A stretch of DNA of 64,000 nucleotides from positions 1 through 64,000 of the forward strand of contig CAJAKC010000022.1 in the NCBI GenBank assembly GCA_903940225.1. The letters are read 5' to 3'. This document shows, piece after piece, positions 30,916 through 49,883 of the stretch (its first letter is position 1; each line of letters begins with the position of its first letter). A program made the position numbers and the translations under genes. Origin of the DNA: an uncultured Microbacteriaceae bacterium (GTDB taxonomy: Bacteria; Actinomycetota; Actinomycetes; Actinomycetales; Microbacteriaceae). Under the pieces are notes generated by a model. That model was not told the DNA's origin, made no database searches, and saw only the letters and a program-made list of their open reading frames with translations.

Positions 30916-31811
30916 CCTGGTTTTACCCCGCGGGAACACTGACAAACGGTGATGCCGACGTCCACGTCACACCGGAGAATGCCGGTTGGGCCTACAGCGG
31001 TCTGCGGGTCTACACCCTGACCACTGGCTCAACGGTTTCGGTCACCCTCGACGGAGAAGAGGGGGTTCTCGTTCCCCTGTCGGCCGAAAACGTCACCGTC
31101 ACCGTCGACGGAGCCCCCTTCACCCTGACCGGTCGTCGCGGGGTCTTTGCCGCGGTATCCGATTGGGTCTACGTCCCCGTCGGGTCGACCATCACCATGG
31201 CGGGGGAATCGGGCGAAATTGCTCTCTGCACCGCGCGTGCGACGGAGGTCTTTCCCGTTCAACACATTGCCGCGGTCGACGTCCCCGTCGAAGTTCGGGG
31301 ATCCGGTAAATCGACCAGGCAAGTGACCAACATCGCGACACCGACATCGTTCACCGACGCGCACCGGATCAACGTGTGCGAAGTCATCACACCCGGTGGC
31401 AACTTGTCCTCGTGGCCCCCGCACCGCCACGACGGAATCGGTGATTGCCCGACAGCGAACGAAGAGATCTACTATTTCCGCATCGGCCGAGGCGATAGTC
31501 CGCACGGAGACCCCTCGGGTCAAGGACTGTTCCATCTGTACACCGTCGACGGGTCCGTCGACGACACCGTCACGATTCACGACGGAGACGTCTACAACGT
31601 GCCCGAGGGTTACCACGGTCCGACCGTCGCTCCGCCCGAATATCCGATGTACTTTCTCAATGTGCTTGCTGGTCCCGCCGCAGAACGGACGATGGCGTTT
31701 TGCGACGACCCCGAGCACCACTGGATTCGCGAAACATGGAACACTCAAACCCAAGATCCCCGTTTGCCGTTGACCACGGCAGCGGGCCGCAGAGAAAAGA
31801 GCACGTCATGA
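30912..31811 (+). CDS. iolB: 5-deoxy-glucuronate isomerase
   Basis: RINVCEVITPGGNLSSWPPHRHDG...EEIYYFRI...GDVYNVPEGYHGPTVAPPEYPMYFLNVLAGP. Confidence 0.93.
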   Translation: MTWFYPAGTLTNGDADVHVTPENAGWAYSGLRVYTLTTGSTVSVTLDGEEGVLVPLSAENVTVTVDGAPFTLTGRRGVFAAVSDWVYVPVGSTITMAGESGEIALCTARATEVFPVQHIAAVDVPVEVRGSGKSTRQVTNIATPTSFTDAHRINVCEVITPGGNLSSWPPHRHDGIGDCPTANEEIYYFRIGRGDSPHGDPSGQGLFHLYTVDGSVDDTVTIHDGDVYNVPEGYHGPTVAPPEYPMYFLNVLAGPAAERTMAFCDDPEHHWIRETWNTQTQDPRLPLTTAAGRREKSTS

Positions 31812-32992: not shown

Positions 32993-34832
32993 GACCGTCT
33001 GCATCACCACCGCCGAGGCGATTGTTCGATTCCTCATTGCCCAACGCACCGTTGTGGAGGGCGTCAACGTTCCCCTCTTCCCCGGCGCATACGGAATTTT
33101 CGGACACGGCAACGTTACGAGCCTCGGCCATTCGCTCGAATCGCACCGTGACGAACTGCCCGTCTGGCGGGGACAAAACGAGCAAGGGATGGGTCTCGCG
33201 GCAGCAGCGTTTGCCAAGGCGACCCGCCGCCAGCAAATTATGGTGTGCACGTCCTCGATTGGACCCGGTGCGACAAACATGGTGACCGCTGCGGGTGTCG
33301 CCATGTCCAACAGACTTCCCGTGCTCTTTATCGCCGGTGACACCTTCGTTTCGCGGCTGCCCGACCCCGTCCTACAACAAGTTGAGCATTTCGGAACCCC
33401 TTCCATCACGGTGAATGACGCGTTCCAGCCGGTCGTTCGGTATTGGGATCGCATCACCCATCCCGCACAGATTCTCAGCTCTCTGCCGCAAGCCGTGGCC
33501 ACGATGTTGGATCCCGGTGACTGTGGACCGGCGTTCATCGGTCTGCCCCAGGACGTCGCGGCGGATGCCTTCGACTACCCCGAATCGTTCTTTCAGACGA
33601 TTGTTCACGAGCGACCACGACCACGACCGGACCGGGGGCAGCTCGCCCGGGCGGTCGATGTTCTTCGCGCCGCGAAACGGCCCGCAATCATCGCGGGCGG
33701 TGGTGTCCATTATTCACTCGCCGAAGCAGAGCTTGCGGCTTTTGCCGAAAAGCACGGAATTCCCGTCGTCGAAACCGTTGCCGGAAAGTCCTCGTTGCTG
33801 TCCGACCACCCGAACTACGCTGGCCCGGTCGGAGTGACGGGGGCCGACGCCGCAAACCAGGTGGTGAGCAAGGCCGATGTTGTTCTTGCTGTCGGTACGC
33901 GACTGGAAGACTTCACGACGGGGTCGTGGACGCTGTTTGCTCCAGAGACCCAATTCATTGGAGTCAATGCCGCGCGGTTCGACGCCCTCAAGCACCGATC
34001 ACTCCCCGTCGTCGCCGATGCTCGCGAAACGTTGACCGAAATGAGTGCTGCACTCGGTGACTGGTCGACCGACGCGTCGTGGACGGAGCACTCTGCGAAA
34101 TGGCGCGGTGAACTAACTAAGTTCGTCACCGACCGCACCGCCGATGACAGCGTGTGGCCGCCCAGTTATGCGCAATTGGTGGGCCTTGTCCACGAATCCG
34201 CGACACCGGACGACTACGTTTTGACCGCTGCGGGCGGTCTGCCGGGAGAACTCAACATCAATTGGATGAGTAAAGGCATCGCCACCTTCGACTGCGAATA
34301 CGGTTACTCGTGCATGGGATACGAGATTTCGGGTGCGTGGGGTGCGGCAATGGCCCGCCCCACCGGCCAGGTCTATTCGATGGTCGGCGACGGGTCCTAC
34401 CTGATGCTCAATTCGGACATCTACGCGTCAATCCTTTCTGGGCACAAAATGATTCTGGTTGTGTGCGACAACGAGGGGTACGCCGTCATCGAGCGCTTGC
34501 AGGTAAGCCAAGGCGGCGCGTCCTACAACAACATGCTGGCCGACTCCACCGGCACGGGTTCGAGCGCTCGGGTCAACTTCGCGGCCCACGCGGCGTCGAT
34601 GGGCGCCGTGACGTTCGAGGTGCACAGCCTTGCTGAATTTGCCGATGCGCTCGTGAAAGCCCGATCCTCAAGCACCAGTGCCGTGATCGTCACGAAGGTT
34701 CGCGCCAAGGACTTCACCGAAGGTGGTGCGTTCTGGCAGGTCGGTGTCCCAGAAGTCTCCGACCGCGCGAGTGTCACCGCGGCGCGCGCAAAAATGGACA
34801 AGGGCCTCACGGCACAGCGCGCCGGGGTGTAG
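32982..34832 (+). CDS. iolD: 3D-(3,5/4)-trihydroxycyclohexane-1,2-dione acylhydrolase
   Basis: TAEAIVRFLIAQRT...FGHGNVTSLGHSLE; TPP-enzyme C-terminus MVGDGSYLMLNSDIYAS. Confidence 0.93.
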   Translation: MSNKTVCITTAEAIVRFLIAQRTVVEGVNVPLFPGAYGIFGHGNVTSLGHSLESHRDELPVWRGQNEQGMGLAAAAFAKATRRQQIMVCTSSIGPGATNMVTAAGVAMSNRLPVLFIAGDTFVSRLPDPVLQQVEHFGTPSITVNDAFQPVVRYWDRITHPAQILSSLPQAVATMLDPGDCGPAFIGLPQDVAADAFDYPESFFQTIVHERPRPRPDRGQLARAVDVLRAAKRPAIIAGGGVHYSLAEAELAAFAEKHGIPVVETVAGKSSLLSDHPNYAGPVGVTGADAANQVVSKADVVLAVGTRLEDFTTGSWTLFAPETQFIGVNAARFDALKHRSLPVVADARETLTEMSAALGDWSTDASWTEHSAKWRGELTKFVTDRTADDSVWPPSYAQLVGLVHESATPDDYVLTAAGGLPGELNINWMSKGIATFDCEYGYSCMGYEISGAWGAAMARPTGQVYSMVGDGSYLMLNSDIYASILSGHKMILVVCDNEGYAVIERLQVSQGGASYNNMLADSTGTGSSARVNFAAHAASMGAVTFEVHSLAEFADALVKARSSSTSAVIVTKVRAKDFTEGGAFWQVGVPEVSDRASVTAARAKMDKGLTAQRAGV

Positions 34833-34843
34833 CCCGCTCCGAA

Positions 34844-35614
34844 TTACCCGTCAGCGGCCAGGTTGAGCAGTTGCGTGACGTCTTCGCCGGTGCGTTGCAT
34901 GTGCTCGCGCCCGCACTGTCCCGCTCGAGCCGCGTCTCCGCTAGCAATGAGTTCCACTAATTCGGCTTGTCGCTTCGACCAATCGCCCGCGAGTGTTTTC
35001 ACAATGGGATAGAAGTAGAACCGCGCGCGTTTTTCCAGTCCGAGGGAAAGGTTCGCGAGAACCTGGTTATGACAGGAAAGCCGGACTGCGACGTTGAAAT
35101 CGACGCTCGCTCGGAACGCGGCCTCGACGTCGTTCGTCGTTGCAGCAGAAGCGCTCCTCTGAACAATTAGGCGCAAAGACTCAAGGTCTTCCTCAGTTCG
35201 GCGTTGCGCTGCCAGACTCGCGATCTCCGCTTCAACAGCCGCCCTCGCCTCGAAAAGGTCCGTCAGCTCGTTGAGCGAGTGAACACAAACGTAGGCCCCA
35301 TACCGAGGGCGAATTTCAACCCACCCGGCCTGTTGCAAGGAACTGAGTGCTTCCCTCACGGGAATTCGGCTGACGCCAAATTCGGACGCGAGGTCGTCGG
35401 GTAACAGTCGAGTTCCTGGTTGGATATCGCCGTGAATGATGGCGTCTTCAAGAAGGTCATGTATTTGGTTGGGTAGCGGTTTGACCTCGACCGCGGGCCG
35501 CAGCGATTCAAATCGCGTCGCACGCCCTCGAAGCCACGATGCGTCGGCCAGAGGCGCTCGTGGCGAATCGGGTCGCGCGCCGCTGAACTCCATGCCGACT
35601 CCTTGTTTTCTCAC
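34844..35614 (-). CDS. GntR-family (FadR-like) transcriptional regulator
   Basis: LLPDDLASEFGVSRIPVREALSSLQQAGWVEIRPRYGAYV wHTH plus helical FCD-like domain; GTGA overlap with upstream M20 gene. Confidence 0.92.
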   Translation of the reverse strand: MRKQGVGMEFSGARPDSPRAPLADASWLRGRATRFESLRPAVEVKPLPNQIHDLLEDAIIHGDIQPGTRLLPDDLASEFGVSRIPVREALSSLQQAGWVEIRPRYGAYVCVHSLNELTDLFEARAAVEAEIASLAAQRRTEEDLESLRLIVQRSASAATTNDVEAAFRASVDFNVAVRLSCHNQVLANLSLGLEKRARFYFYPIVKTLAGDWSKRQAELVELIASGDAARAGQCGREHMQRTGEDVTQLLNLAADG

Positions 35615-36849
35615 GTGAGAAACTCTCGTGCACTAACAACGTATAACATCACACAGTTCAGGACTTCGTCCTCGACCGCATAATCATCGTTTCCCGAGGA
35701 CAGAAGTGGCTGGGGTCCGTAACACAGGGCGGGAACTCCGAGTCGGCGCCAGCGGCTTGCGTCACTTGCCGGAAGCCGAATTGCCATCTCGGGGAAATCA
35801 ATCTCCAGTGCCAGCGATGCCGCCCGCCATGATTCCACGATGTCCGACTCGACGTCAGTGATGTTCGCTTCCCACCCTTTGATGACCGAGATGTGCGCAT
35901 CGGCATCGATCCTCTCAATTTCTGACGTCAGGTGGGCCAACACGTCGGCGATTGTCAGGCCGGGGGGAATCCGGAAATCAATTTCTGAGTGAGCCGTCGT
36001 CGATACCTGCCCGATAAAGGTTCCCGATTGGACGACTCCGACGTTGGCGGTGAGGAAGCTGGAACGATCGTTCTCCTCGTCAAGCCCGGATTCACGGCGC
36101 ACACGAAACGCATCGAATGTTTCATCGCCGCGCCACCCTGTCAACCCATCAACGACAGAGACAATACGAGCAATCCGAGCCGAGGCGGAGGTCGTGGACC
36201 TTACCGACGATGAGTGTCCTGAATCAGCCTTCACCTCGATCCGCACCCAGAGGACACCTTTTTCTCCGTGAGAGAGCCTCCGGAAACCGGGTCCCTCACC
36301 GCAAATGAGTGCGTCACCCGTTATCTGCCGATCCTCAATCAGAGCCTGTGCCCCGTTGGGTCCAAAAACGACCTCATCGCTCACCGCGGCAAACGTGATG
36401 GTCCCGTTCCACTGATCTCGATTTCTCCAGAGGATGTCCATCGCGTGGGACATCGCAACGACCGCGCCCTTCATGTTTCCCATACCAAGGCCATACAGTT
36501 TGCCGTCGCGACGGGTCAGTTCAAACGGTTTGACGGTCCACTCCGATAAGTCGCCCGGTGGCATTGTGTCCAGGTGGGCATTGAACAGCAGGTTCTTTCC
36601 CGGTTTTCCCGAATCGATGCGGACGACCACGGAGGGCATCGAGTCGACCTTGTGAAACAGTTCGGCCTTAATGCCCAGTTCGTCAAAAAAGTTGCGAACC
36701 CGCTCCGCCACGAGGGTGGTGTCTCCGGGTGGGTTGACGCTGTTGGCCGTGACCACCGATTCACAGAACTCGACAATCGATTCACGTCGGCTTTCGACCT
36801 CGGCTCGGACGATTCCAGCGAAGTCTGTTGGGCTGATTTTTGCCGTCAT
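35611..36849 (-). CDS. M20-family metallohydrolase (divergent active site)
   Basis: LLFNAHLDTMPPGDLSEW, YGLGMGNMKGAV, SDEVVFGPNGA. Confidence 0.85.
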   Translation of the reverse strand: MTAKISPTDFAGIVRAEVESRRESIVEFCESVVTANSVNPPGDTTLVAERVRNFFDELGIKAELFHKVDSMPSVVVRIDSGKPGKNLLFNAHLDTMPPGDLSEWTVKPFELTRRDGKLYGLGMGNMKGAVVAMSHAMDILWRNRDQWNGTITFAAVSDEVVFGPNGAQALIEDRQITGDALICGEGPGFRRLSHGEKGVLWVRIEVKADSGHSSSVRSTTSASARIARIVSVVDGLTGWRGDETFDAFRVRRESGLDEENDRSSFLTANVGVVQSGTFIGQVSTTAHSEIDFRIPPGLTIADVLAHLTSEIERIDADAHISVIKGWEANITDVESDIVESWRAASLALEIDFPEMAIRLPASDASRWRRLGVPALCYGPQPLLSSGNDDYAVEDEVLNCVMLYVVSAREFLT

Positions 36850-38294
36850 CCGATTCTTCCCACTACTCCTCGTCGCGAATCGGCGCCAACGATGAGGCCG
36901 TGTGGCCCAAACCCTGCGGCGACGACAGCCCCGAAAATTGGATCGCCGTATTCCTGATGGATGAGGGTATGACCCCGAGATTCAAGGTCAGCCGCGGCGG
37001 GATGGCCGGCCTCGATGAGCAGCGAACCGTTCTCGCTGCGCCAGCGCGGGGTATCGATTGCTTCCTGAATGTCTTGCCCGTCAAATTCCATCGCGGAAAG
37101 CACCTGTAGCAGGGTCTGCACCTGTCCATCGGCGCCTGGAGTCGCCAGTGCCAGCGTCACCCCGTCCCGTGTGCGAACAATCGCCGGGGCGAGCGTATGA
37201 ACGGGATATTCGCCGGGCCGGTAGGAATTCTCCTTTTCGGTGAATCCGTCTCCTCGATTGTTGAGCGTGATTCCGAGCTCGGGGACGAATACACACGAAC
37301 CAAAATCGTCGAACACGCTGACCAGCGAGGACACAACCTGGTCGGCAGTCGCAACGACAACTCCGGCGGTGTGCACGTATCCTCGCGGTCCGCCGCGGCG
37401 ATCAGCGCTGGATTCGTTCACGACAAGTGCACGGCTGAGCAGGGACTCGCCGTTCTCAATCACGTCGTCGCGCGACTCAAACGCCGCTTCCGTCGCTTCG
37501 ACGAGAAGGTGATCTCGAATCGTCGGGGACTCCTCAAGCAGTGCGCGATTCTGATCAATCCACCTCGATGCCATCGACAGGATTATCCCCTGGGACGGTG
37601 CTGGCTGCACCTCGAGTGTTCCACCAGACCACGACGACCGAACGGGTTCCGCGAGTGTGGCCCGGTGCTGAGCAAAATCGTCCACTGTCAGCGTTGACCC
37701 GTGTCGTCGGGCAGCCGCGACGATTGCCGCCGCAACCTCGCCCTCGTAAAAATGGTCGAACCCGTCGCGCGCCAACTTCTCAAGCAGGTCGGCCAACTCG
37801 GGCTGAATCCACGTGTCGCCCTGCGACTTCTCAAGGAGTGACCAACCGGTGTCACCCAGTGCCTCAAAACGTCGGCGTTGCCCGCTTACCGCCGATGCAA
37901 GATCGGCGTCGATGGTGACCCCATTCCGCGCGAGCTCAATTGCGGGTTGAAGAATGGTTTGTCGATCGAGCAGGCCCCACCGCTCGTGCGCACTGTGCCA
38001 GCCGGACACCAACCCCGGCACCGTGATGCTGCGTCCGACAGAATTTGTCGGGCTTGCGACAATCGCGGATCGACCCGATCCGGTCACGGCGAGCGCCGCG
38101 TCGTCTCGTGACGCGACAATCATCATGAGGTCTCCACCGAGACCCGCAGCCTGCGGCATCGCGACACAAATGACGGCGTGGGCCGCGATGGCGGAGTCGG
38201 CCGCGCTTCCCCCCGCGCGGCTGATGTCAATAGCCGCCTGCGTGGCCAAGCGATGCGCCGTGGAACACGCGATCGTCTCGTTGCGCTTTGTCAT
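36846..38294 (-). CDS. gamma-glutamyltransferase family protein (no signal peptide)
   Basis: ACSTAHRLATQAAIDISRAGGSAADSAIAAHAVICVAMPQAAGLGGDLMM; ITVPGLVSGW; LGITLNNRGDGF. Confidence 0.87.
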   Translation of the reverse strand: MTKRNETIACSTAHRLATQAAIDISRAGGSAADSAIAAHAVICVAMPQAAGLGGDLMMIVASRDDAALAVTGSGRSAIVASPTNSVGRSITVPGLVSGWHSAHERWGLLDRQTILQPAIELARNGVTIDADLASAVSGQRRRFEALGDTGWSLLEKSQGDTWIQPELADLLEKLARDGFDHFYEGEVAAAIVAAARRHGSTLTVDDFAQHRATLAEPVRSSWSGGTLEVQPAPSQGIILSMASRWIDQNRALLEESPTIRDHLLVEATEAAFESRDDVIENGESLLSRALVVNESSADRRGGPRGYVHTAGVVVATADQVVSSLVSVFDDFGSCVFVPELGITLNNRGDGFTEKENSYRPGEYPVHTLAPAIVRTRDGVTLALATPGADGQVQTLLQVLSAMEFDGQDIQEAIDTPRWRSENGSLLIEAGHPAAADLESRGHTLIHQEYGDPIFGAVVAAGFGPHGLIVGADSRRGVVGRIG

Positions 38295-38388
38295 GCCACC
38301 TCGTACTCGGAGTTGAATCCACAGTTCAGGAAATACAGGGACGGTTAACGTCGTATCGATACTCTAACCCTTGACAAACGTCAATCGT

Positions 38389-38404
38389 ATAATGTATACA
38401 TTAT
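38389..38404. promoter_or_regulatory. Perfect 16-bp palindrome, putative GntR operator
   Basis: ATAATGTATACATTAT in the GGT/E1-alpha divergent intergenic region, downstream of a TTGACA element at 38371. Confidence 0.65.
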
Positions 38405-38469
38405 TTCACAGGCACGGATTCGCTAGGCCTCCCCGGAGACCGCCGCACACTCAATGAAGAGAGAGGCCC

Positions 38470-39477
38470 ATGGCCACACAGAAGGATCTCGACCACATCA
38501 CCAAAGATGATGCGCTCGACATGTTGCGCCGGATGATTCGCATTCGACGGTTTGAGGAAAAACTGTCCGTCTTGTTTAAGCGGGGAAAACTCCCCGGCTT
38601 CGTGCACCTTTATACGGGTGAAGAAGCTATCGCCGTCGGCGCCTGTTCCGCTCTGCGCGACGATGATCGGATTACGTCGACCCACCGGGGCCACGGTCAC
38701 CTCATCGCGAAGGGCGCACTCGTCAATCGCATGATGGCCGAACTTTTCGGTCGAGTGGACGGTTACTGCCGCGGCAAGGGTGGATCCATGCACATCGTCA
38801 GTTTTGAGCTGGGGATTATCGGCACCAACGGAATCGTCGGCGGTGGTATCCCGATTGGTACTGGAAGCGCGTGGGCCGATAGCCACCTCGGGCGAGACAA
38901 TGTCACCATTGTGTTTTTTGGGGACGGCGCATCCAACCAGGGTGTGTTCTTCGAATCCATGAACATCGCCAGTGTCTGGAAACTCCCGGTGATCTTTGTC
39001 TGCGAAAACAACGGCTACACGGAATGGACTCCGACCGCAGAATTAACGGCCGGCAACATCGTCGACCGATCCGCACCGATGGGGATTCCCGGTGAGGCCG
39101 TCGACGGAAACGACGTCGTGGCGATGCGCCTGGCTGTCGAAAGAGCTGTTTCTCGCGCCCGAGCGGGTGACGGACCGACCCTCATCGAGGCGCGAAGTTA
39201 CCGCTGGAACGGCCACAACGAAGGTGAAGAGGCCTTCGCTGGAGCATATCGACCGGATGCGGAACAAGCGGAATGGCGCGAGCGTGACCCCATCGTCGCG
39301 TTTGGCGAGCGCCTAGTCTCGGCGGGGTGGATGACCCGCGATGAGTGGGACGCTGTTGACGCGGAGGAACTAAGCTCCGTTGACGCAGCGGTTGAATTTG
39401 CCGAACAGAGTCCTTTTCCCGATGCCGACGAGGCACTACTCCACCTATTCGCCGACGATTCGGAGGGCGTCCGATGA
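38470..39477 (+). CDS. thiamine-dependent E1 component alpha subunit (acetoin/pyruvate dehydrogenase type)
   Basis: TPP motif GDGASNQGVFFESMNIASVWKLPVIFVCENN; STHRGHGHLIAKG. Confidence 0.93.
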   Translation: MATQKDLDHITKDDALDMLRRMIRIRRFEEKLSVLFKRGKLPGFVHLYTGEEAIAVGACSALRDDDRITSTHRGHGHLIAKGALVNRMMAELFGRVDGYCRGKGGSMHIVSFELGIIGTNGIVGGGIPIGTGSAWADSHLGRDNVTIVFFGDGASNQGVFFESMNIASVWKLPVIFVCENNGYTEWTPTAELTAGNIVDRSAPMGIPGEAVDGNDVVAMRLAVERAVSRARAGDGPTLIEARSYRWNGHNEGEEAFAGAYRPDAEQAEWRERDPIVAFGERLVSAGWMTRDEWDAVDAEELSSVDAAVEFAEQSPFPDADEALLHLFADDSEGVR

Positions 39478-40466
39478 ACGCACAGTCGACCACAACCGAC
39501 CGCAGCATCTACTTCATTGAAGCGATGCGCGAAGGGCTTCGCGGAATGTTGACCGAGGACGAGAACGTCGTCGTGATCGGTGAGGACGTGGGGCGTTCTG
39601 TCATCGGTGCCACGCGCGGCCTCGTCGAAGACTTCGGCCCGATGCGTGTGCGGAACACGCCCATCTCGGAAGCAACTTTTGTAGGGATGTGCGTCGGTGC
39701 GGCTGCGGTCGGGCTTCGACCGGTCGTGGACTTGATGGTGGGATCGTTCTTCTACGTCGCCATGGACCAGCTTGCAGATCAAGCCGCAAAACTCCGCTAC
39801 ATGTCGGGCGGCCAAGTGAGCCTTCCCATCGTCTATTTCACCGCAAGTGGGCCGAGCGGTTCAGCGGCTGCTCAGCATTCCGAAAACCCTCACCCGATGC
39901 TGATGAACGTCGCGGGTCTCAAAATTGTGATGCCCTCGACGCCTTATGACGCCAAGGGTCTGATGGTCTCCGCGGTCCGCGATAACAACCCCGTGGTGTA
40001 CTTCCAAGACTTTGTGCTCGGTGGGACCCGCGGAGTCGTGCCGGAGGAGTTGTACTCCATCCCGCTCGGCGTGGGAGACATCAAGCGTCACGGAACGGAC
40101 GTCACCGTCGTCGCCATTGGCGCCGCGGTCCCCAAAGCTCTGCGCGTTGCAGAAGTGATGGAGAAAGACGGCGTCTCCGTTGAAGTTGTCGATCCGCGAA
40201 CTCTCGTGCCCATGGATTACGACCTGATTTTGGAATCCGTTACGCGGACCGGACGGCTCGTGGTCGTCGACAATGCCCGACTGACCTGTTCGGCCGCGAG
40301 TGAAATTGTCGCCACCGTCACGGAGAGGGGTTTCGACCTCCTCAAATCAGCACCGCAGCGTGTTGCCTGGGCGGACGTCCCGGTTCCGTTCTCCCCTCCG
40401 CTGGAAGAACGGGTAGTCATCAGCGACAGCGACATCGTCTCTGCAATCCGCGCGGTGCTCGCCTAA
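39474..40466 (+). CDS. E1 component beta subunit
   Basis: IGEDVGRSVIGATRGL...RVRNTPISEATFVGMCVGAAAVGLRPVVDLM; ATGA overlap with alpha. Confidence 0.93.
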   Translation: MNAQSTTTDRSIYFIEAMREGLRGMLTEDENVVVIGEDVGRSVIGATRGLVEDFGPMRVRNTPISEATFVGMCVGAAAVGLRPVVDLMVGSFFYVAMDQLADQAAKLRYMSGGQVSLPIVYFTASGPSGSAAAQHSENPHPMLMNVAGLKIVMPSTPYDAKGLMVSAVRDNNPVVYFQDFVLGGTRGVVPEELYSIPLGVGDIKRHGTDVTVVAIGAAVPKALRVAEVMEKDGVSVEVVDPRTLVPMDYDLILESVTRTGRLVVVDNARLTCSAASEIVATVTERGFDLLKSAPQRVAWADVPVPFSPPLEERVVISDSDIVSAIRAVLA

Positions 40467-40499
40467 CTGTTTAGTTCACCCAACCGAAAGGGACACAAA

Positions 40500-40727
40500 A
40501 TGGACGTAGTACTTCCCAAATGGGGAATGTCGATGCAGGATGCCGTCGTTGCCCAATGGCACGTGGCGGTTGGAGACGCCGTGACAGAGGGCCAAACGCT
40601 CGCAACCGTTGAGACGGACAAGGTCGATGCGGCGGTAGAAGCACCGTGTGCGGGAACTATCGTTGAGCTTCTTGCCAGCGCAGGGGACACTGTGGACGTC
40701 GGAAGTATCATCGCGCGAATCGGATAA
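40500..40727 (+). CDS. stand-alone lipoyl/biotinyl-domain protein
   Basis: 75 aa: LPKWGMSMQDAVVAQWHVAVGDAVTEGQTLATVETDKVDAAVEAPCAGTIVEL; ETDKV lipoylation motif. Confidence 0.92.
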   Translation: MDVVLPKWGMSMQDAVVAQWHVAVGDAVTEGQTLATVETDKVDAAVEAPCAGTIVELLASAGDTVDVGSIIARIG

Positions 40728-40735
40728 AGGACATC

Positions 40736-41173
40736 ATGAACCAGGCGTTCGACCCCTCGGCTCTCAGTGACGATCACGCGATGACCGCACTCGGAGAATT
40801 CCGCGATGAATGTCGTCGTCGAGCGCTGCGCCTTTCCTTCGCAATGACGGATCGTGGTGGCAACGTCGTTCTCAGTCATCGAATGGTGGGTGCCCAGTTG
40901 GGGTCTCTCGGATTGGCCATCGACAAGGCTTACACCGCGGTCGCTTTCGAACATCCCACAAGTGCCTGGACCGAATCCTCAGCGCCGGGGCAGTCGGACT
41001 GGGGGCTGGCGCACACCCTCGGTGGTCGTGTCACCGTTTTCCCGGGTGGCGTCCCCATCTTTCGCAACGGACAGCTCGTCGGTGGAATCGGAGTGAGTGG
41101 AACAAAGGCAACAACGGACGAAGAAATCGCAACAGCCGTCGTGCATGCGCTCGGTTGTGAGGTGCATCCGTGA
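40736..41173 (+). CDS. GlcG/HbpS (DUF336-like) family protein
   Basis: SFAMTDRGGNVVLSHRMVGA...GGVPIFRNGQLVGGIGVSGTKATTDEEIA. Confidence 0.85.
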   Translation: MNQAFDPSALSDDHAMTALGEFRDECRRRALRLSFAMTDRGGNVVLSHRMVGAQLGSLGLAIDKAYTAVAFEHPTSAWTESSAPGQSDWGLAHTLGGRVTVFPGGVPIFRNGQLVGGIGVSGTKATTDEEIATAVVHALGCEVHP

Positions 41174-41907
41174 CGACCTCGGTGGTTATTGGTGGTGCGT
41201 CGGGAATTGGCCGAGCTGTCGCCGAAAATCTGCATGCTCGCGGCGATGTGGTCATTGTCGTCGATCGTGATGATGCGGGAAAGGAACTGGCCAAGAATCT
41301 GGGTTCGAACGCCCACTTTGTCCACGCGGACATGTCCACATCGACTGGTCCGCGCGAGTCAATCACGGAATCCCTGGAGATTTCCGGGGGCGAAATCGAC
41401 GTCCTCTATTTTGGACCGGCAGTCCTCGAATCGCGTCGTCTCGCCGAATGGACCCTCGAGGATTGGGACCGCAGCCTGTCCGTGAACCTCCGGGCGGCTT
41501 TCTTCGTGTGCCAAGCAGCGGAGACCGCGCTTCGGAAGTCGCCCCTCGGTCGAATCGTCCTGATGTCCTCCACCGGAGCGTTTCGTGGCCACGCGGGGAT
41601 GCACGCGTATCACGCGTCCAAATCCGGAATGTTGGGGCTGGTGCGTTCTCTTGCGGATGAATTTGCCCCGTCCGTCACGGTGAATGCGGTGTGCCCCGGA
41701 TGGATCGATACGCCCTTCAACGATTCCTTCTGGACCTTTCAAGAGGACCCAAAACGCGCCCGCGAACAGATTGAAGCGTCCATTCCCGCTCGTCGACAGG
41801 GTCAACCCAGCGACGTCGCAGGCATCATCAATTTCCTGACAACCCCCGAAGCGTCGTACATCACGGGCCAGTCCGTGACCGTCGACGGCGGATACACGGC
41901 GGTGTAG
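41170..41907 (+). CDS. short-chain dehydrogenase/reductase
   Basis: VVIGGASGIGRAVAENL; YHASKSGMLGLVRSLADEFAPSVTVNAVCPGWIDTP. Confidence 0.93.
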   Translation: MTTSVVIGGASGIGRAVAENLHARGDVVIVVDRDDAGKELAKNLGSNAHFVHADMSTSTGPRESITESLEISGGEIDVLYFGPAVLESRRLAEWTLEDWDRSLSVNLRAAFFVCQAAETALRKSPLGRIVLMSSTGAFRGHAGMHAYHASKSGMLGLVRSLADEFAPSVTVNAVCPGWIDTPFNDSFWTFQEDPKRAREQIEASIPARRQGQPSDVAGIINFLTTPEASYITGQSVTVDGGYTAV

Positions 41908-41909
41908 TC

Positions 41910-43121
41910 ATGACGAAAACATTCTTCCCGACGACACGCCCCTCGAGCGCCGCCGTCCCCGTGCTCGACACGCGAGCCATTCGAGCCTTTCATCAGTCTC
42001 TTCCGGGTTACGCGGTCACGCCCCTCTATTCCTGCCCCCTACTCGCCGAACGCCTTGGAGTCGCGCGAGTGCTCGTGAAGGACGAGTCGAAACGACTGGG
42101 ATTGCCCTCGTTCAAAATGCTCGGTGCGTCGTGGGCGACGGCCACGGCGATATCGCGTGAGTGGCTCGGTTTCGCCGCGAACCCGGAATCTATCGCTCAA
42201 CTGAAACGTGACTTAGCCAGCACCTACGGCAGAACGTGGCGCGTCGGCCGACGGCTCGTTGCTGCAACAGACGGCAACCACGGTCGCGGTGTCGCGCGCA
42301 TGGCGCGCTTGCTTCGCCTGAGGTGTCAGATTTTCGTGCCGGCAGGGACCGCGAAGTCGCGCATTCGCTCGATTGAACGTGAAGGAGCACGCGTCGACGT
42401 TGTGAACGGAACATACGACGATGCAATCGCGCGATCGGCGGAGGAAGCCTCGGCCACGACTCTCGTCGTATCGGACACGTCGTGGGATGGATACACCGAG
42501 ACTCCGACGAATGTCATCAACGGGTACTCCACCATGTTTTCCGAAATCGACGATCAAATGGGTCTCGCGCAACCTAACGTCGTTGCTTTTCAGGCGGGTG
42601 TTGGTGCCTTTGCCGCGGCGGGGATGATGCACTGGGCAAATCGACGCAAGCCCTCAGACGTCACAATGCTGGCCATCGAACCATCGACCGCGAACTGTCT
42701 CATGGAGTCCGCCCGCGCAGGAGCCATCACACTCGTGCCCGGCCCACACGAATCTACGATGGCTGGTCTCAACTGCGGATTACCGTCGCTCATCGCCTGG
42801 CCGATGGTCGAGAAATTTACCGACGGATACATCGCCGTCACCGATGACTCAACGTATGCCGCAATGCGACTCCTCGCGGAATGCGGAATTGTTGCGGGCG
42901 AATCCGGCGCCGCGGGACTCGCCGGTCTGCTCGCCGTGAGTGATCCCGATCAGCGCCGCCACACCGGCCTCACGTCAGATGCCACGGTGTTGGTCATCAA
43001 CACCGAGGGTGCAACGGATCCGTTGAACTATCGCCGGGTCACCGGTGAGACGGCAAAGGGGGTGATGCGAACCCAACGACGACGACAGAATCGAACACAC
43101 ACGATCACCGTGAACTCGTGA
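41910..43121 (+). CDS. diaminopropionate ammonia-lyase-type PLP enzyme
   Basis: VLVKDESKRLGLPSFKMLGASWA (PLP-Lys), ATDGNHGRGVARMARLL, GESGAAGLAGL. Confidence 0.85.
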   Translation: MTKTFFPTTRPSSAAVPVLDTRAIRAFHQSLPGYAVTPLYSCPLLAERLGVARVLVKDESKRLGLPSFKMLGASWATATAISREWLGFAANPESIAQLKRDLASTYGRTWRVGRRLVAATDGNHGRGVARMARLLRLRCQIFVPAGTAKSRIRSIEREGARVDVVNGTYDDAIARSAEEASATTLVVSDTSWDGYTETPTNVINGYSTMFSEIDDQMGLAQPNVVAFQAGVGAFAAAGMMHWANRRKPSDVTMLAIEPSTANCLMESARAGAITLVPGPHESTMAGLNCGLPSLIAWPMVEKFTDGYIAVTDDSTYAAMRLLAECGIVAGESGAAGLAGLLAVSDPDQRRHTGLTSDATVLVINTEGATDPLNYRRVTGETAKGVMRTQRRRQNRTHTITVNS

Positions 43122-43147
43122 CAAACCGGCGAGTCCGGGATGGACAG

Positions 43148-43165
43148 GTTCACCTATAGTTCACA
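43148..43165 (+). promoter_or_regulatory. 11-bp spaced direct repeat upstream of NCS1 permease
   Basis: GTTCACC-TATA-GTTCACA, same geometry as the PHO-box-like repeat before pstS. Confidence 0.45.
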
Positions 43166-43206
43166 CCTCAGTTTTGTAAGTCTCACTATTTGAAAGGTTG
43201 GCTTCA

Positions 43207-44595
43207 ATGTCGCAGTCACAAAGCACCTCGACTCTCGAGGTACATCACGTCGACGTGATTTCTCGTGCCGATAGGCACGGAAAAGCGCGCGACCTATTCC
43301 CGGTTTGGTTCGCTGCAAACCTCAATGTCGGTAACGCGTTCTTCGGAGCACTTGCCGTCATCGTCGGCAACAGTTTTTTCTGGGCCGTCGTCGTCGTCAT
43401 TCTGGGAAACCTTGCTGGCGCAGCGTTCATGTCTCTGCACTCCATCCAGGGTGCAAAGCTCGGAGTGCCCCAGCTGATTCAAAGTCGCGGGCAGTTTGGC
43501 TTCATCGGCGCTCTCTTGCCGGTTGCGCTCGCCGCGTTGCTCTACCTCGGGTTCTTTTCCACCACCGCGGTAATCGGAGGACAATTCCTCACGGCGGCTG
43601 TCCCGGCACTGGATATGTTCTGGTCGCCAATCGTTGTCTCCGTCTTGAGCCTTGTGCTTGCGCTTGTGGGTTATCGCGCAATTCACAAAGCAGCTAAGTG
43701 GGGACAGTGGCCGCTTGCAATTGCGGTTGTCGTCGTGACGGTTGGTTCGCTCGCCCACGGCGGGTTCGACCTGTCCATGAGCGGATTCGCCCTCGGACCG
43801 TTCCTGACCGCGTTCGGGATCATCGCAACATTCCTGTTGACGTACGCTCCGTACGTTTCGGACTATTCGCGATACCTCCCTTATGAAACAAAGGCCAAGG
43901 ACGCCTTCTGGTGGACGTTCGGTGGCTCGTTCCTGGGTACTCTGTGGACTGAACTTCTGGGTGTCATGCTGGCCGTTCAATTCATTCCGGGTGACACCGC
44001 TGGAGCGATTGCCGAGATGTTTGGCGGCGGTTGGATGGTTTCGCTCCTGTTGCTTGTGACCGCAGTTGCTATCGCGGGAAACAACGCGATGAACCTTTAC
44101 GGTGGAATGCTGAACCTCATTACGGCGCTCTCTACCTTCAAGGCTCCGAAGGCGTCTCTCGCCTTGCGAATCGGAATGCTCATTCCGACCTTCGCTCTCG
44201 GGTTGCTCATTGCGGTCGCAGCGACCGCCGACTTCAACTCGCTCGTGTCAACATTCCTGTCGTTCTTGTTGCTCGGATTCGTTCCATGGGGAATCATCAA
44301 CCTTGTGGACTATTACTGGATCCGAAAAGGCGATTACGACGTCAAGGCATTCTTCGAGCCGAAGGGTCGCTACTTCAGCGACGCTGCATCGTGGACTGTC
44401 GCCGGCTTCAACCTCAAAGCGCTGCTGTCCTACGGAATTGGTATCCTCGTATCACTGCCGTTCGTCAACAACGCCGCCTTCCAAGGTGGAGCGACGGCTT
44501 GGGTTGAGGGTGCAGACATCTCGTGGATTCCTGGTCTCATTGTGACCGGCGCAATCTACTGGATTCTCACCGTCGGTAGCCGAGTTAAGGACTAG
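43207..44595 (+). CDS. NCS1-family (cytosine permease-like) transporter
   Basis: LFPVWFAANLNVGNAFFGALAVIVGNSFFWAVVVVILGNLAGAAFMSLHSIQGAKLGVPQLIQSRGQFG; 12 TM. Confidence 0.92.
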   Translation: MSQSQSTSTLEVHHVDVISRADRHGKARDLFPVWFAANLNVGNAFFGALAVIVGNSFFWAVVVVILGNLAGAAFMSLHSIQGAKLGVPQLIQSRGQFGFIGALLPVALAALLYLGFFSTTAVIGGQFLTAAVPALDMFWSPIVVSVLSLVLALVGYRAIHKAAKWGQWPLAIAVVVVTVGSLAHGGFDLSMSGFALGPFLTAFGIIATFLLTYAPYVSDYSRYLPYETKAKDAFWWTFGGSFLGTLWTELLGVMLAVQFIPGDTAGAIAEMFGGGWMVSLLLLVTAVAIAGNNAMNLYGGMLNLITALSTFKAPKASLALRIGMLIPTFALGLLIAVAATADFNSLVSTFLSFLLLGFVPWGIINLVDYYWIRKGDYDVKAFFEPKGRYFSDAASWTVAGFNLKALLSYGIGILVSLPFVNNAAFQGGATAWVEGADISWIPGLIVTGAIYWILTVGSRVKD

Positions 44596-44604
44596 GTATC
44601 AATT

Positions 44605-45459
44605 GTGTCGATGGCCGAACGGCTTTTCATTCTCCAATACGGCGCCGAGCGAGTTTCAAAGAATTTGTCACTCGCCGGCGGCCCGCATCACCTGTATTGG
44701 GAACCGCTGCTCGGAATCCTCGTCGACACGGCGGATGGGTGGGTGTTACTGGACACAGGGATGTCACGTAACGCCCACCTGTCACGCGAAAACCAGGACG
44801 CGTACGTGGCTGGCGGAGTCGATGCTCCCAACCTCGACTCCGTGTGGCATCTTCGCCCCACCCCTCCCGATGCACAGGCCTGGAATTGGATTCGCGATGG
44901 CGACCCTCTCGTCGCAGCATTAGGTGATTACGGACTGACGCCGAGCGACATTAGCCTCGCGGCCATAAGCCACATGCACGTCGACCATTCGGGAGGAATT
45001 CCCACGCTGTCCGAAGCGGGGGTTCCGATCGCGATTCAGTCGCGCGAACTGGATTTCGTGCAGTCCGGTGCCGTGGGCATCTCCGAAGGATTTTTCAGTG
45101 ATGACTGGAGTCACCCCCACACGAATTGGCGATTACTTGACGGTGACGAGGAATTAGCCCCCGGAGTTTCTGCAGTGTTTACGCCGGGTCACACCCCCGG
45201 CCATCAATCGTTTTCCGTGACCCTGCCGGAAACGGGAACGTGGGTTTTCGGTTGCGATGCCACCGACCTTGCACAAAACTTTTTGGATAACGTCCCCTGC
45301 GGTTCGTGCGCAGGAGGGACAACCGCGGATGAAACTGAAGCTCGTGCGTCCCTAGACAAACTGTTGGCCCTGGGCCGACGCACGAATACACGCCTAATCC
45401 CCGGACATGACCAGCTGGTTGCCAATGCCGTTGCGCATCCCCCTCAGGGGCACCGATGA
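44605..45459 (+). CDS. metallo-beta-lactamase fold lactonase (N-acyl homoserine lactonase-like)
   Basis: SHMHVDHSGGIP (HxHxDH), FTPGHTPGHQSF, FGCDATD. Confidence 0.87.
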   Translation: MSMAERLFILQYGAERVSKNLSLAGGPHHLYWEPLLGILVDTADGWVLLDTGMSRNAHLSRENQDAYVAGGVDAPNLDSVWHLRPTPPDAQAWNWIRDGDPLVAALGDYGLTPSDISLAAISHMHVDHSGGIPTLSEAGVPIAIQSRELDFVQSGAVGISEGFFSDDWSHPHTNWRLLDGDEELAPGVSAVFTPGHTPGHQSFSVTLPETGTWVFGCDATDLAQNFLDNVPCGSCAGGTTADETEARASLDKLLALGRRTNTRLIPGHDQLVANAVAHPPQGHR

Positions 45460-46253
45460 GCACCGACGATTTCTCGCTGGCCGGGCGGACTGCGCTCGTC
45501 ACGGGGGCGACGGGCCTGATTGGATCCGCCATTTGCGCGGAGTTTGCGCGAGCCGGTGCACGAATCGTCGTCTCCGACGTTGACGCGGCGATGTGCGCAC
45601 AATTAGCGGACGAGCTGACTCGAGAGTGGCAGGTTGACACATTCCCCGTGGCAATGGATGTCAGCAGCGGTGAGTCCGTGATTGCTGCGGCTAGGGAGAC
45701 CACAAAAGACTTTGGGGTGTGCGACGCGATTGTCGTCAATGCCGGAATACTCGCGCTCGCGCCCGTGCTCGACATCGATGACAGCACCTGGGAAAAAGTC
45801 ATCCGCGTCAATCTGACCGGCTCGTTCAATACGGCGCGTTCGTTTGCGGCCGAGATGGTAAAGGCCGGGCGGAAGGGGACAATCGTGTTCTCGTCCTCGC
45901 TGTTCGGGGTCCGCGGTGGCGCCGGAAATGCAGCCTATTCGGCCAGCAAGTTCGGACTCCTCGGTTTGTCGCAAAGCATGGCCGCTGACCTGGCCGTCCA
46001 CGGGATCCGGGTCAATGCAGTGTGCCCTGGCCAAATCGACTCCTCGATGATGAACGGGCTCTTCGAGACGCGCGCCAACGCAAATGGGACGACCGCCGCT
46101 GAGGAACGAGCAGAGTTCCTTCGGCGAATTCCCCTTGGGGAATTGGGCACTATTGATGAGGTCGCAAAGGCTTACCGGTACCTGTCTTCTGACGCCAGCG
46201 CGTACGTCACCGGCCAGCACATCATCGTCGATGGCGGCTGGCAAATTGGTTGA
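45456..46253 (+). CDS. short-chain dehydrogenase/reductase
   Basis: ALVTGATGLIGSAICAEFARAGARIVVSD; YSASKFGLLGLSQSMAADLAVHGIRVNAVCPG. Confidence 0.93.
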   Translation: MSTDDFSLAGRTALVTGATGLIGSAICAEFARAGARIVVSDVDAAMCAQLADELTREWQVDTFPVAMDVSSGESVIAAARETTKDFGVCDAIVVNAGILALAPVLDIDDSTWEKVIRVNLTGSFNTARSFAAEMVKAGRKGTIVFSSSLFGVRGGAGNAAYSASKFGLLGLSQSMAADLAVHGIRVNAVCPGQIDSSMMNGLFETRANANGTTAAEERAEFLRRIPLGELGTIDEVAKAYRYLSSDASAYVTGQHIIVDGGWQIG

Positions 46254-46322
46254 AGTGCGCCTGGAGAGAATAATTGACGAAATTTAGTAACCCGTAATCT
46301 GATTTATCGTAAAGTTTTGTCC

Positions 46323-47072
46323 ATGGGACGGCCTCCAAAGGGAACACAACCGAAGACTGATCCTTCGTTGACCCCGGACTTCTGGCGAAATCTCACGGGG
46401 CGCGCTGAGCCCAGCCAACGGGATAAGTTTCTGTGGCTCACGATCGATCGCGTCCGAACGATGGGTCTCGTTCAATTCAAAGTCACTTTGATTGCCAAAA
46501 TGTTGGGCTACTCGGAGGCCATGGTGAATCACCACTTCGGTTCTCGCGACGGGCTAATCGCAGAATGTGCCGAAGTTGTTCACTCTGACTATTCCGCGAA
46601 ACTTATCGACGCAACGGAGAGTGCGCCGCGTGACCCGCGCTCGCGACTACTGGCTCACATTCGCGCGCGCTTCGACGAAGGACAGAAGTTGGGCGGGTGG
46701 AGCCAGGTGCTCAACTATCCTTATCACTCCTTTGAATCACCCGTCATTGCGATGGCACGGGTCGGCTCTTCATTCAGTGATAGCTTCTACCGAAACCTCT
46801 TGTACATCACGCAATTGGTAATCGATGTCCGAGAGGGAACCGTCAATCACAGCACGATCGATCCGCGCGAGTTTCCGGCCGCCGTCCTCAAACACGACGC
46901 GGATGCGCTCGCGCATGCAATAACGATTGGCATTGCCACGTCCGGAGGAGCCATGTGGATAGCCGGTCGGGTCGACACGGGAACACATTCGCCGGAAATT
47001 CGCGCGCTCGCGGAAATGATGACCAACCGTCAGGCTGAACTATTGATCGACATAATCACACCCCGGAGCTGA
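46323..47072 (+). CDS. TetR-like transcriptional regulator
   Basis: HTH-like KVTLIAKMLGYSEAMVNHHFGSRDGLIAECAEVVHSDY. Confidence 0.75.
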   Translation: MGRPPKGTQPKTDPSLTPDFWRNLTGRAEPSQRDKFLWLTIDRVRTMGLVQFKVTLIAKMLGYSEAMVNHHFGSRDGLIAECAEVVHSDYSAKLIDATESAPRDPRSRLLAHIRARFDEGQKLGGWSQVLNYPYHSFESPVIAMARVGSSFSDSFYRNLLYITQLVIDVREGTVNHSTIDPREFPAAVLKHDADALAHAITIGIATSGGAMWIAGRVDTGTHSPEIRALAEMMTNRQAELLIDIITPRS

Positions 47073-47276: not shown

Positions 47277-47663
47277 GTGGTTGCATCACACAGAATTTCA
47301 TCGGGGGGACCGTGGGAGGAATCGATTGGCTATTCCCGCGCGACGGTCGCAGGGCCGCACGTTCACGTCTCGGGGTCAACTGCAACGGTCGGTGGGGTGC
47401 TGCAGCACGCTGGTGACGCCTACGGCCAGACGATGGTCGCGTTCGAGGTGATTGCCGCAGCACTCGCTGAAGCAGGGCACGCGCTCGAGGACGTCGTACG
47501 CACGCGCATGTACTTGGCGAACGCGGCCGACATGGACGCGGTTGGACGGGCGCACGGCGAACTGTTTCGCGAGATTCGACCCGCCGCGACGATGCTCGCC
47601 GGCATTGAATTTATTAACCCCGAGATGCTTGTCGAGATCGAAGTCGACTCATACAAGGCGTAA
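47277..47663 (+). CDS. RidA/YjgF family protein
   Basis: ISSGGPWEESIGYSRATVAGPHVHVSGSTA...VVRTRMYLANAADMDAVGRAH...PAATMLAGIEFINPEMLVEIEV. Confidence 0.92.
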   Translation: MVASHRISSGGPWEESIGYSRATVAGPHVHVSGSTATVGGVLQHAGDAYGQTMVAFEVIAAALAEAGHALEDVVRTRMYLANAADMDAVGRAHGELFREIRPAATMLAGIEFINPEMLVEIEVDSYKA

Positions 47664-47708: not shown

Positions 47709-49883
47709 TTAGGCCTTGCGGCGACGGGTTGCGGCAACGGCCACCCCACCCACTGCGAGGACTGCGAAGCCAGCCATCGCGAAGGTTCCCGCGTCAACTC
47801 CGGTCGAGGCGAGCTGTGCGAGCGGCAAGGCGATTCTCAGTCCTGACGCTTCACACATATCCGCAGAGTTAACTCCATCTAACGTGATGGTCTGCTTGCT
47901 ACCGACGTCACTGCCGGTGGTCGGGCGCGTGATGCTGGTTCCCTCAACGATTCCATCTGCGATTGATCCTGCAGGAGGGTCGGCAACCACGGTTGTTTCA
48001 CAGTGGTTGCTGGCATCCAGTGCCAAGCAAAGCTCCGGGTCCTCGCCCACGAAGGTTACCGTCGCGGATATCTGCTCAGCAAGCTCATCCGAGATGTCGC
48101 CGGCAATGATTCGGATAGAAGGCTGAGTGCCGGTCGTTTCCGAGGTAAGACCGCTGAGGTCGATAAGTCCGCTCGCGTCCGGCGTCAAGTCGACATATCC
48201 GTCGACGGCCATCGGTGCATCGTCCTCATCCTCAGGGTCAGACGTGTCATAGAACGACACCTGAACGTCTCCCATGGACACGCCAACGGGGAGGTTGACC
48301 ACGATGCTCTCCCACGCGGTTACTCGGCCGTCCTCCACGCACGACATTCGAGGCGTGACTGTTTCGTAAGGCAGTTCGACTTCGGGGTCACCAAGGTCAC
48401 AGCCAACTTCACCCGTCGTTGCGTTGAGCGGGTAGATATTTCCCTTGTCACCGTTTATCCAAACACAGTTCGCGATCTGGCTGTCAATGGTTGCACTGTA
48501 GAAATTCACAATCTCGTCAATGTACCCGTCGAAACCTGCACAAGCGGCCTGAGTCTCGAAGTCATAACAAGTGACCCAGTTCGAGCCCCAGTCAAGCGCA
48601 TCATTCTCTGTTTCGAAGTAGAACCGGTTATTGGCGTAGGCAAACTGTTCCGCGTTCTGCCGTGCCACAACCCAGTTGATCGGGTTTGCGTCGATGAAGG
48701 TTCCCAGTGTGGCAGGGAAGGCGAAGGTTGCGCCCGTGCTGCCGATGCACTGTTCACTGTAGACGTCGCAGACTCCCAATACAGTTCCTACCGTGTTCTC
48801 AACGGGAAGCGGCGGCATTCGATTGGCGGTGTCCGTCAGCGTGATTGCCGAAGTTCCCGAGCAAAGACCGTCGGTTGCGGGGTTGTAGCAGCCGAGCTTG
48901 TTGTTGAGTGTCCAGTAAACCAAACCACCCAGCGCCGTGACACGACCGGTATCGAATGCGTAATCCGTCGTTCCGACGTTCCAGCCGTTGTCGGAACATG
49001 GTGCCGCCGTTGACATGTCAAGGCACATCAGGTCGCCGTTACCGGCGATGCTCCAGATGATGTTGCCCCCACGCGACGAGGAACCCATGTCCTGGTAATC
49101 GGCGAATCCCTCTTCAAAATCAGTCACGACGGTGGTCACTCCAAGAATGTCGAATCCGCATCCGACGGGAGTGTCATTGGTGTAATCGACACATAGGACA
49201 CCAAAGTTCTTGGAGTCGTCCATGGCGTAGGCAAAAACCTTGTCTTGCGAGTCGTACGAGTAGATCGATGACCCGTGGTTCGACGAGTAATCCTCGATGA
49301 CGAATTCGGGAGTCGCACACAGCTCTCCGCTAAAGGTGTGACATTCGATGGTGACACCTGTTTGGGTTCCGCCGTTCTGAGGGGACTGGTGGTGCCAGAA
49401 GTTGAACACCTTGTCGTTTCCGATAGCGACGTCATAACCGTCACCGCCACCCGATCCCGCGAACGACAGTGCGCGAAGAGCGCCGGTCGAGGTGGTCTTG
49501 AACGTGTTTTCGCCAACCGTGTTGACATCTCCGAGGGAACGAATCGCAATGATGTCCGCGACATTGGTCGGCTGGGTCACTGCCCAGTCGATCCAGGAAG
49601 TGCCATCGAGGGTGTACTCAAGGTTCCACCCTTCGGGCCATGTGACGTCGTCTTCTGGCACACCGCTGTCGTCCATGACAAGACCGAGGCTCTGTGCACT
49701 CCAGGTTGCATACAGTTCGTGGACAGCGGGACCGGTCTTGGCGATCGGGCCGGCAACGGTCACATCAAGTGTGTCGCCCGATTCAAGGTCGACAGCGGAC
49801 GAGAGACCGTTCTGAACGTCGAGCGTGGTTGCCACTGCTTGGGCCATTGTCGGGATGAACGCGAGAGACAACGCAGCAACCAC
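47709..49883 (-). CDS. predicted exported repeat protein with LASTG-type sorting signal
   Basis: Signal-like N-terminus, Cys-paired repeats, C-terminal LASTGVDAGTFAMAGFAVLAVGGVAVAATRRRKA; true start uncertain. Confidence 0.8.
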   Translation of the reverse strand: MVAALSLAFIPTMAQAVATTLDVQNGLSSAVDLESGDTLDVTVAGPIAKTGPAVHELYATWSAQSLGLVMDDSGVPEDDVTWPEGWNLEYTLDGTSWIDWAVTQPTNVADIIAIRSLGDVNTVGENTFKTTSTGALRALSFAGSGGGDGYDVAIGNDKVFNFWHHQSPQNGGTQTGVTIECHTFSGELCATPEFVIEDYSSNHGSSIYSYDSQDKVFAYAMDDSKNFGVLCVDYTNDTPVGCGFDILGVTTVVTDFEEGFADYQDMGSSSRGGNIIWSIAGNGDLMCLDMSTAAPCSDNGWNVGTTDYAFDTGRVTALGGLVYWTLNNKLGCYNPATDGLCSGTSAITLTDTANRMPPLPVENTVGTVLGVCDVYSEQCIGSTGATFAFPATLGTFIDANPINWVVARQNAEQFAYANNRFYFETENDALDWGSNWVTCYDFETQAACAGFDGYIDEIVNFYSATIDSQIANCVWINGDKGNIYPLNATTGEVGCDLGDPEVELPYETVTPRMSCVEDGRVTAWESIVVNLPVGVSMGDVQVSFYDTSDPEDEDDAPMAVDGYVDLTPDASGLIDLSGLTSETTGTQPSIRIIAGDISDELAEQISATVTFVGEDPELCLALDASNHCETTVVADPPAGSIADGIVEGTSITRPTTGSDVGSKQTITLDGVNSADMCEASGLRIALPLAQLASTGVDAGTFAMAGFAVLAVGGVAVAATRRRKA

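Follow-up and report, generated by a model that had tools for sequence, protein, structure and literature searches.

What does a streamlined freshwater actinobacterium, with a genome of 1.37 Mb, gain by keeping a dozen genes for what is seemingly one nutrient? The question is raised by a cluster at positions 34844–47072 of the 64,000-nucleotide stretch of DNA analysed here ('the window'), which comes from an uncultured Microbacteriaceae bacterium (contig CAJAKC010000022.1; G000, contig C22, in our set). An earlier note on this DNA described the cluster as 13 genes in two divergent operons and as a candidate catabolic system, and all 13 are present where it placed them. Their assembly goes beyond chance: the unit is real, conserved and rare. 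The explanation that we favour, with moderate confidence, is an actinobacterial catabolic operon, rare and probably spread laterally, which its substrate induces through the GntR regulator. The genes and sites (with the match or pattern that identifies each) are:

34844..35614, minus strand: GntR/FCD (FadR-type) regulator (Pfam PF00392 and PF07729)
35611..36849, minus strand: M20-family homologue with an altered metal site (PF01546, 70.5 bits)
36846..38294, minus strand: homologue in the GGT superfamily of Ntn (N-terminal nucleophile) hydrolases (PF01019, 272 bits)
38371..38400, plus strand: promoter-like element for the plus-strand operon (sequence)
38387..38399, no strand: palindromic operator candidate (sequence pattern)
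38470..39477, plus strand: E1 alpha of a thiamine-dependent 2-oxoacid/acyloin dehydrogenase (PF00676)
39474..40466, plus strand: E1 beta (PF02779/PF02780)
40500..40727, plus strand: stand-alone lipoyl carrier, 75 amino acids (PF00364)
40736..41173, plus strand: GlcG/HbpS-like small protein (PF03928)
41170..41907, plus strand: oxidoreductase SDR1 (PF13561/PF00106)
41910..43121, plus strand: DpaL-type ammonia-lyase dependent on pyridoxal phosphate (PLP) (NF006058)
43198..44595, plus strand: NCS1-type importer of a divergent clade (PF02133, 166 bits)
44605..45459, plus strand: MBL-fold hydrolase, AiiA/AttM lactonase-like (PF00753)
45456..46253, plus strand: oxidoreductase SDR2 (NCBIfam SDR families)
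46317..47072, plus strand: TetR-like regulator, outside the conserved core (label and N-terminal sequence)

Twelve of the 13 family labels hold by Pfam or NCBIfam. The exception is TetR, which has no NCBIfam match at 1e-20 and takes its name from the earlier note and from its N-terminal sequence. The tight packing is plain to see: neighbouring genes overlap by 4 bp in five places (GntR/M20, M20/GGT, E1 alpha/E1 beta, GlcG/SDR1 and MBL/SDR2), and the remaining gaps are short (E1 beta–lipoyl, 33 bp; lipoyl–GlcG, 8; SDR1–DpaL, 2; DpaL–NCS1, 76; NCS1–MBL, 9; SDR2–TetR, 63).

A conserved and rare gene set

Do these genes belong together? In the soil actinobacterium Arthrobacter sp. 35W (L036), 12 of the 13 recur in identical order and orientation, GntR-M20-GGT divergent from E1a-E1b-lipoyl-GlcG-SDR1-DpaL-NCS1-MBL-SDR2, with protein identities of 52–79%. 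Fragments from the same genus and from freshwater metagenome-assembled genomes (MAGs) keep the order up to their contig ends (L031, on the same contig as G004:C83; L032; L033; and L113, in G011). Sets that are reduced or rearranged are found in the Egibacteraceae (L035, identical with locus L123 in G471), in a Frankineae MAG (L039), in another Microbacteriaceae genome (L111, in G069) and, outside the class, in two genomes (L122 and L124). The earlier note would have counted a lack of co-occurrence in other genomes against its proposal, and the set does recur elsewhere; its members travel together across distant actinobacteria, with a common regulator and an operator-like site.

They do so seldom. 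A close DpaL is found in 3 of 15 genomes of the genus, several of them incomplete. Of 396 genomes sampled from the order, one has an E1 beta this close (E ≤ 1e-110), and of 396 from the phylum five do (E ≤ 1e-100), the window's own genome being counted both times; in three genomes outside the order E1 beta is 73–76% identical. Rare occurrence combined with high identity suggests lateral spread. A search of plasmids returned no E1 alpha above 60% identity.

The two operons part at a divergent region of 175 bp. It carries a plus-strand promoter-like element, TTGACA–18 bp–TATACA, spaced identically in L031, L032 and L036, and over the −10 of this promoter sits the palindrome TAATGTATACATTA. The pattern TATANNNTATAC, read on both strands, occurs once in the window and never in 100 shuffles, and it recurs in the divergent regions of L031–L033, L036 and L111. 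GntR orthologues (45–72% identical) accompany the clusters in L032, L035, L036, L039 and L111, and GntR is probably the protein that binds the palindrome. The 12-gene set is probably switched jointly; the common operator-like site argues against independent regulation of its parts, which the earlier note had named as one sign that it was wrong. That note also saw regulators at both ends, and here only GntR is conserved. Beyond TetR lies a small open reading frame (ORF) resembling Rid-family deaminases (47277–47663, plus strand; no NCBIfam match at 1e-20). Downstream of SDR2, neither TetR nor this Rid-like gene is present in L036 or in L113, a locus from the same genus, so the second regulator is a local feature.

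The enzymes and the importer

A thiamine-dependent E1 with a separate lipoyl carrier, as first proposed, is borne out by Pfam and by motif. E1 alpha is 69–86% identical in actinobacterial relatives, and the nearest solved chains to E1 beta are E1 beta subunits of bacterial 2-oxoacid/pyruvate dehydrogenases. The carrier has the motif ETDKVDA, and its lysine motif is kept in all eight loci compared. The trio thus has both E1 subunits and the lysine-bearing lipoyl domain expected of a 2-oxoacid/acetoin dehydrogenase complex; a further expected part, an E2 acyltransferase core, is not encoded in the window cluster. In L039 an E2 catalytic core (PF00198) directly follows the lipoyl gene, and E2s are encoded elsewhere in the window's own genome; both support acyl transfer to CoA by an E2 acting in trans.

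DpaL scores 349.8 bits against NF006058, above the cut-off of 276, and falls below those of the stricter diaminopropionate ammonia-lyase models (TIGR03528, 272 against 532; TIGR01747, 258 against 274). Its motifs SFKMLG, TDGNHGR and SDTSWDGY align with the Escherichia coli enzyme (4d9g), and the Lys (which we take to hold PLP) and two Asp (presumably catalytic) are conserved in the orthologues. As judged by these residues, DpaL is probably the PLP ammonia-lyase that the earlier note took it for. The Rid-like gene beyond TetR, considered as a partner for DpaL, was set aside, not being conserved in L036.

The GlcG/HbpS-like protein is conserved in L031, L036, L039, L111 and L113; SDR1 has orthologues among the relatives, and those of SDR2 are 48–72% identical. 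NCS1 orthologues are 54–86% identical (an ATG at 43207 is an alternative start). No match to NCS1 was found in the PDB by sequence or by profile, and without detectable similarity to solved transporters its binding site cannot be read for clues to the substrate. A DUF1275 (YoaK-like) membrane protein, possibly an alternative transporter, adjoins the cluster in L036 (18030–18674) and L111 (9070–9708; Pfam match for the L111 copy). MBL has the metal motif HxHxDH (SHMHVDHSGG) and later His, Asp and His residues, kept in five orthologues, as expected of the putative MBL-fold hydrolase already proposed. Its closest solved relatives are the AiiA lactonases of N-acyl-homoserine lactones (AHLs), matching over residues 97–234 only, and it scores below the cut-offs for AiiA (105.7 against 375 bits) and AttM (92.4 against 390).

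Deacylation by M20, one of the steps that the earlier note assumed, is weakened by the M20 homologue itself, and a canonical M20 deacylase is unproven here. The protein has the M20 domain and the M20 fold: its AlphaFold2 (AF2) model has a mean predicted local distance difference test score (pLDDT) of 82 and resembles DapE and 5-nitroanthranilate aminohydrolase in fold; with DapE 7uoi, Foldseek gives a template modelling score of 0.75. Three of the di-zinc ligands are nevertheless replaced: the bridging Asp by Asn125, the second-site Glu by Val160 and the C-terminal His by Ser385 (we assume the roles of these positions from DapE). The motifs shift accordingly, GRGxxDMKG to GLGMGNMKG, DEE to DEV, and the C-terminal metal His to Ser or Ala. 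The window protein and all of its orthologues—four, covering four lineages—have Asn, Val and Ser or Ala in these columns, whereas of 22 control M20s 20 have the Asp, all 22 the Glu and 21 the His (correctly framed proteins from the phylum sample and the window's own genome; six wrong-frame ORFs were excluded). His92 and Glu185 of the first site and the base Glu159 are kept, so a mono-metal hydrolase is possible.

Homologues with the same Asn substitution (GLGAxNMK) stand beside E1 alpha in 13 loci of the Chloroflexota and Acidimicrobiales (L040–L043, L046, L047, L049, L051, L053, L055, L058, L059 and L085). The Glu–Glu pair of these M20s is broken (at one residue or the other, which the alignment does not tell apart), and the C-terminal His is absent. 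Most of the loci have the order creatininase-YheO-Rid-M20-E1a-E1b-lipoyl-SDR-(aldehyde dehydrogenase)-SDR-amidohydrolase, in which the non-core names come from recognition of the sequence rather than a family search. What the Chloroflexota cluster shares with the window cluster is E1ab-lipoyl, a pair of SDRs and the Asn-substituted M20; in place of GGT, NCS1 and (mostly) a PLP lyase, it has creatininase-like, Rid and amidohydrolase genes. E1ab-lipoyl stands here in a second nitrogen-handling context, a point in favour of a catabolic role in the window as well; a literature search that left out most subscription journals found no published description of the Chloroflexota set. A clade of M20 proteins depleted of metal ligands, accompanying E1ab-lipoyl in two phyla, is the part that a specialist would least expect. 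We regard it as speculative, and rather unlikely, that E1ab, a stand-alone lipoyl carrier and a non-di-zinc M20-fold protein make up a new functional unit in an undescribed pathway for nitrogenous metabolites in both phyla. The M20-like protein would then catalyse the step just preceding or just following the E1-lipoyl reaction, perhaps by mono-metal hydrolysis or by acyl-lipoyl release.

Removal of a gamma-glutamyl group, the other hydrolytic step assumed at the outset, fares no better. The GGT homologue scores 210.3 bits against the NCBIfam model g_glut_trans (cut-off 357.85), and the residues that hold the gamma-glutamyl group are not conserved: the Arg column holds Arg, Cys or Ser among orthologues, the Asp varies, and SSM is replaced by HTL (pocket positions that we take from E. 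coli GGT). These residues do not support gamma-glutamyl chemistry. Thr309, in an invariant HTAG near the place expected of the nucleophile, is the putative nucleophile; the AF2 model (mean pLDDT 49.8) is too poor to place it. The best solved match is 5hft, presumably oxamate amidohydrolase (87.6 + 62.8 bits summed over two chains).

One pathway or two

What might such a set do? On the explanation that we favour, NCS1 would import a small nitrogen-containing, probably ring-closed compound, and MBL would open a lactone (or else an ester or lactam related to one). Release of an amide or ureido part would fall to the GGT-like Ntn-hydrolase together with the atypical M20 protein, and the beta-substituted amino acid so formed would lose ammonia through DpaL, leaving a 2-oxo acid. 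Hydroxyl groups would be oxidised by SDR1 and SDR2; E1ab would act on the 2-oxo acid, or alternatively on an alpha-hydroxy ketone, in an oxidative cleavage that loads the lipoyl arm of the 75-residue carrier; and the acyl group would pass to CoA by way of an E2 encoded elsewhere. GntR would repress both operons at the palindrome covering the −10.

The set divides into two modules: A (NCS1, the lactonase-like MBL, E1ab-lipoyl and the SDRs) and B (the GGT-like and M20-like proteins, GntR, GlcG, SDR1 and DpaL). They are fused in the window and in Arthrobacter sp. 35W, and can occur apart elsewhere. The Egibacteraceae locus (L035/L123) has SDR2, E1ab-lipoyl-GntR, M20, GGT, SDR1 and DpaL, and its genome encodes no NCS1 of the window's kind at E ≤ 1e-20. 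The Frankineae MAG (L039) has E1ab-lipoyl, the E2 core, GH31, SDR1 and DpaL, and its opposite strand encodes GntR, GlcG and a PAAT-like ABC transporter. L111 has just GlcG-SDR1-DpaL-SDR2 opposite GGT-M20-GntR. L122 and L124 have E1ab-lipoyl-SDR2-SDR1, an amidohydrolase, an MBL at 44% identity and, adjoining it, a GntR gene 25–27% identical to that of the window; L122 has in addition an NCS1 (54% identical) and a gene of the enolase superfamily.

Several points weigh against the catabolic operon as we have drawn it. NCS1 and MBL lie a long way from those members of their families that have been characterised, and the M20 homologue might be something other than a hydrolase. Module A stands in L122 and L124 with no DpaL, M20 or GGT at either locus, and module B stands in L111 with no E1, NCS1 or MBL nearby, in a genome whose NCS1 proteins are 31–35% identical. 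Because each module can occur alone, the evidence stops short of proving one linear pathway, and the cluster may join two half-pathways; the order of steps in the earlier note is, for the same reason, not fixed by the evidence.

Two half-pathways under one regulator, A turning a lactone-type carbon compound into acyl-CoA and B handling an amino-acid conjugate, with only SDR1 and SDR2 in common, is a possibility of some substance, if an unlikely one. The separate occurrences speak for it, as do the PAAT-like transporter beside the L039 set and the GH31 gene inserted there. Against this, two families have DpaL and SDR1 placed between lipoyl/GlcG and NCS1 within a single, closely spaced operon, and SDR1 and SDR2 belong to both modules.

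Rival substrates and known systems

Which compound might be degraded? One candidate is a conjugate of 2,3-diaminopropionate (ureido-, oxalyl- or N-methyl-), whose breakdown would resemble the YgeY–YgeX end of the reductive uric acid pathway, in which these enzymes turn albizziin into pyruvate (PMC12507026). DpaL would then yield pyruvate, and E1ab-lipoyl acetyl-CoA. The pairing of an M20 with a DpaL-type lyase, as in YgeY/YgeX, and the conserved DpaL residues fit this idea, which we nonetheless judge improbable: the M20, which lacks the di-metal ligands, scores 97.9 against the YgeY family cut-off of 321, no SsnA, HyuA or YgeW homologue is found among the cluster genes, and pyruvate would need no E1, SDRs or lactonase of its own.

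Breakdown of a homoserine-lactone-type compound has a place for every gene: MBL would open the lactone, an Ntn/M20 acylase would remove the acyl group, DpaL would turn homoserine into 2-oxobutanoate, and E1ab-lipoyl would make propionyl-CoA. The nearest solved or named relatives of MBL (AiiA and AttM) point the same way, but it lies far below their cut-offs and its AiiA match is confined to part of the protein, DpaL is kept in clusters without MBL (L111 and L039), and we know of no NCS1 carriers for AHLs. We therefore give this scheme very little credence. Breakdown of a sugar-amino or glycosylated amino compound, hinted at by GH31 inside the Frankineae operon, by ManD, KDPG (2-keto-3-deoxy-6-phosphogluconate) aldolase-like and sugar kinase-like genes adjoining L111, and by inositol genes adjoining the window cluster, is the least credible of all, since such neighbours change from genome to genome, are not part of the conserved block and may be unrelated.

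The inositol genes (28925–34832, plus strand) encode IolC, IolB, a Gfo/Idh/MocA enzyme nearest levoglucosan dehydrogenase, and IolD, and are shared by none of the relatives examined. They converge on GntR, the stops of IolD and GntR lying 11 bp apart; they form a separate, convergent iol set, and a link to the cluster was rejected. Further out are an acetoacetate-CoA ligase scoring above its curated cut-off (24212–26071, plus strand) and a large predicted surface protein (47709–49883, minus strand) whose LASTG, hydrophobic stretch and RRRKA end resemble a sortase-type anchor.

Identifying the nutrient on which this putative catabolic operon acts would name a compound of importance in lakes and soils. 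The complete copy in Arthrobacter sp. 35W offers experimenters a defined unit, the operator candidate could serve as a biosensor, and the M20 clade with its altered metal site is on offer for study of its chemistry.

How, finally, does the cluster compare with known systems? The earlier note recognised no named pathway, and we found none: a literature search that left most subscription journals outside its reach turned up no description of this gene combination, of a free-standing lipoyl protein with acetoin dehydrogenase, or of a DpaL gene cluster, so 'undescribed' is provisional. With the vitamin B6 (4-pyridoxate) pathway the cluster shares an SDR and an MBL lactonase, which match pyridoxal 4-dehydrogenase (SDR1, 156 against 325) and 4-pyridoxolactonase (MBL, 65 against 325) weakly; this candidate was rejected, the ring oxygenase and later enzymes being absent. 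The AttM/BlcC and AiiA systems likewise place a lactonase-like MBL enzyme beside dehydrogenases, whereas the window MBL belongs to a distinct clade below the cut-off and has many extra genes around it. The reductive uric acid pathway (PMC12507026) also has an M20-family protein clustered with a DpaL-type lyase; it too was rejected, since its other enzymes are missing from the window (XdhD, YgfK, SsnA, HyuA and YgeW; SsnA, HyuA and YgeW/UacY were sought among the cluster genes with Pfam and NCBIfam) and the window M20 falls outside the YgeY family and is without those metal ligands. With acetoin, pyruvate and branched-chain 2-oxoacid dehydrogenases, last, the window shares homologous E1 alpha, E1 beta and lipoyl proteins, the carrier matching acetoin dehydrogenase E2 best; it differs from them in its separate carrier of 75 amino acids, in the absence of both an E2 core and an E3 from the cluster, and in scores below the curated cut-offs.

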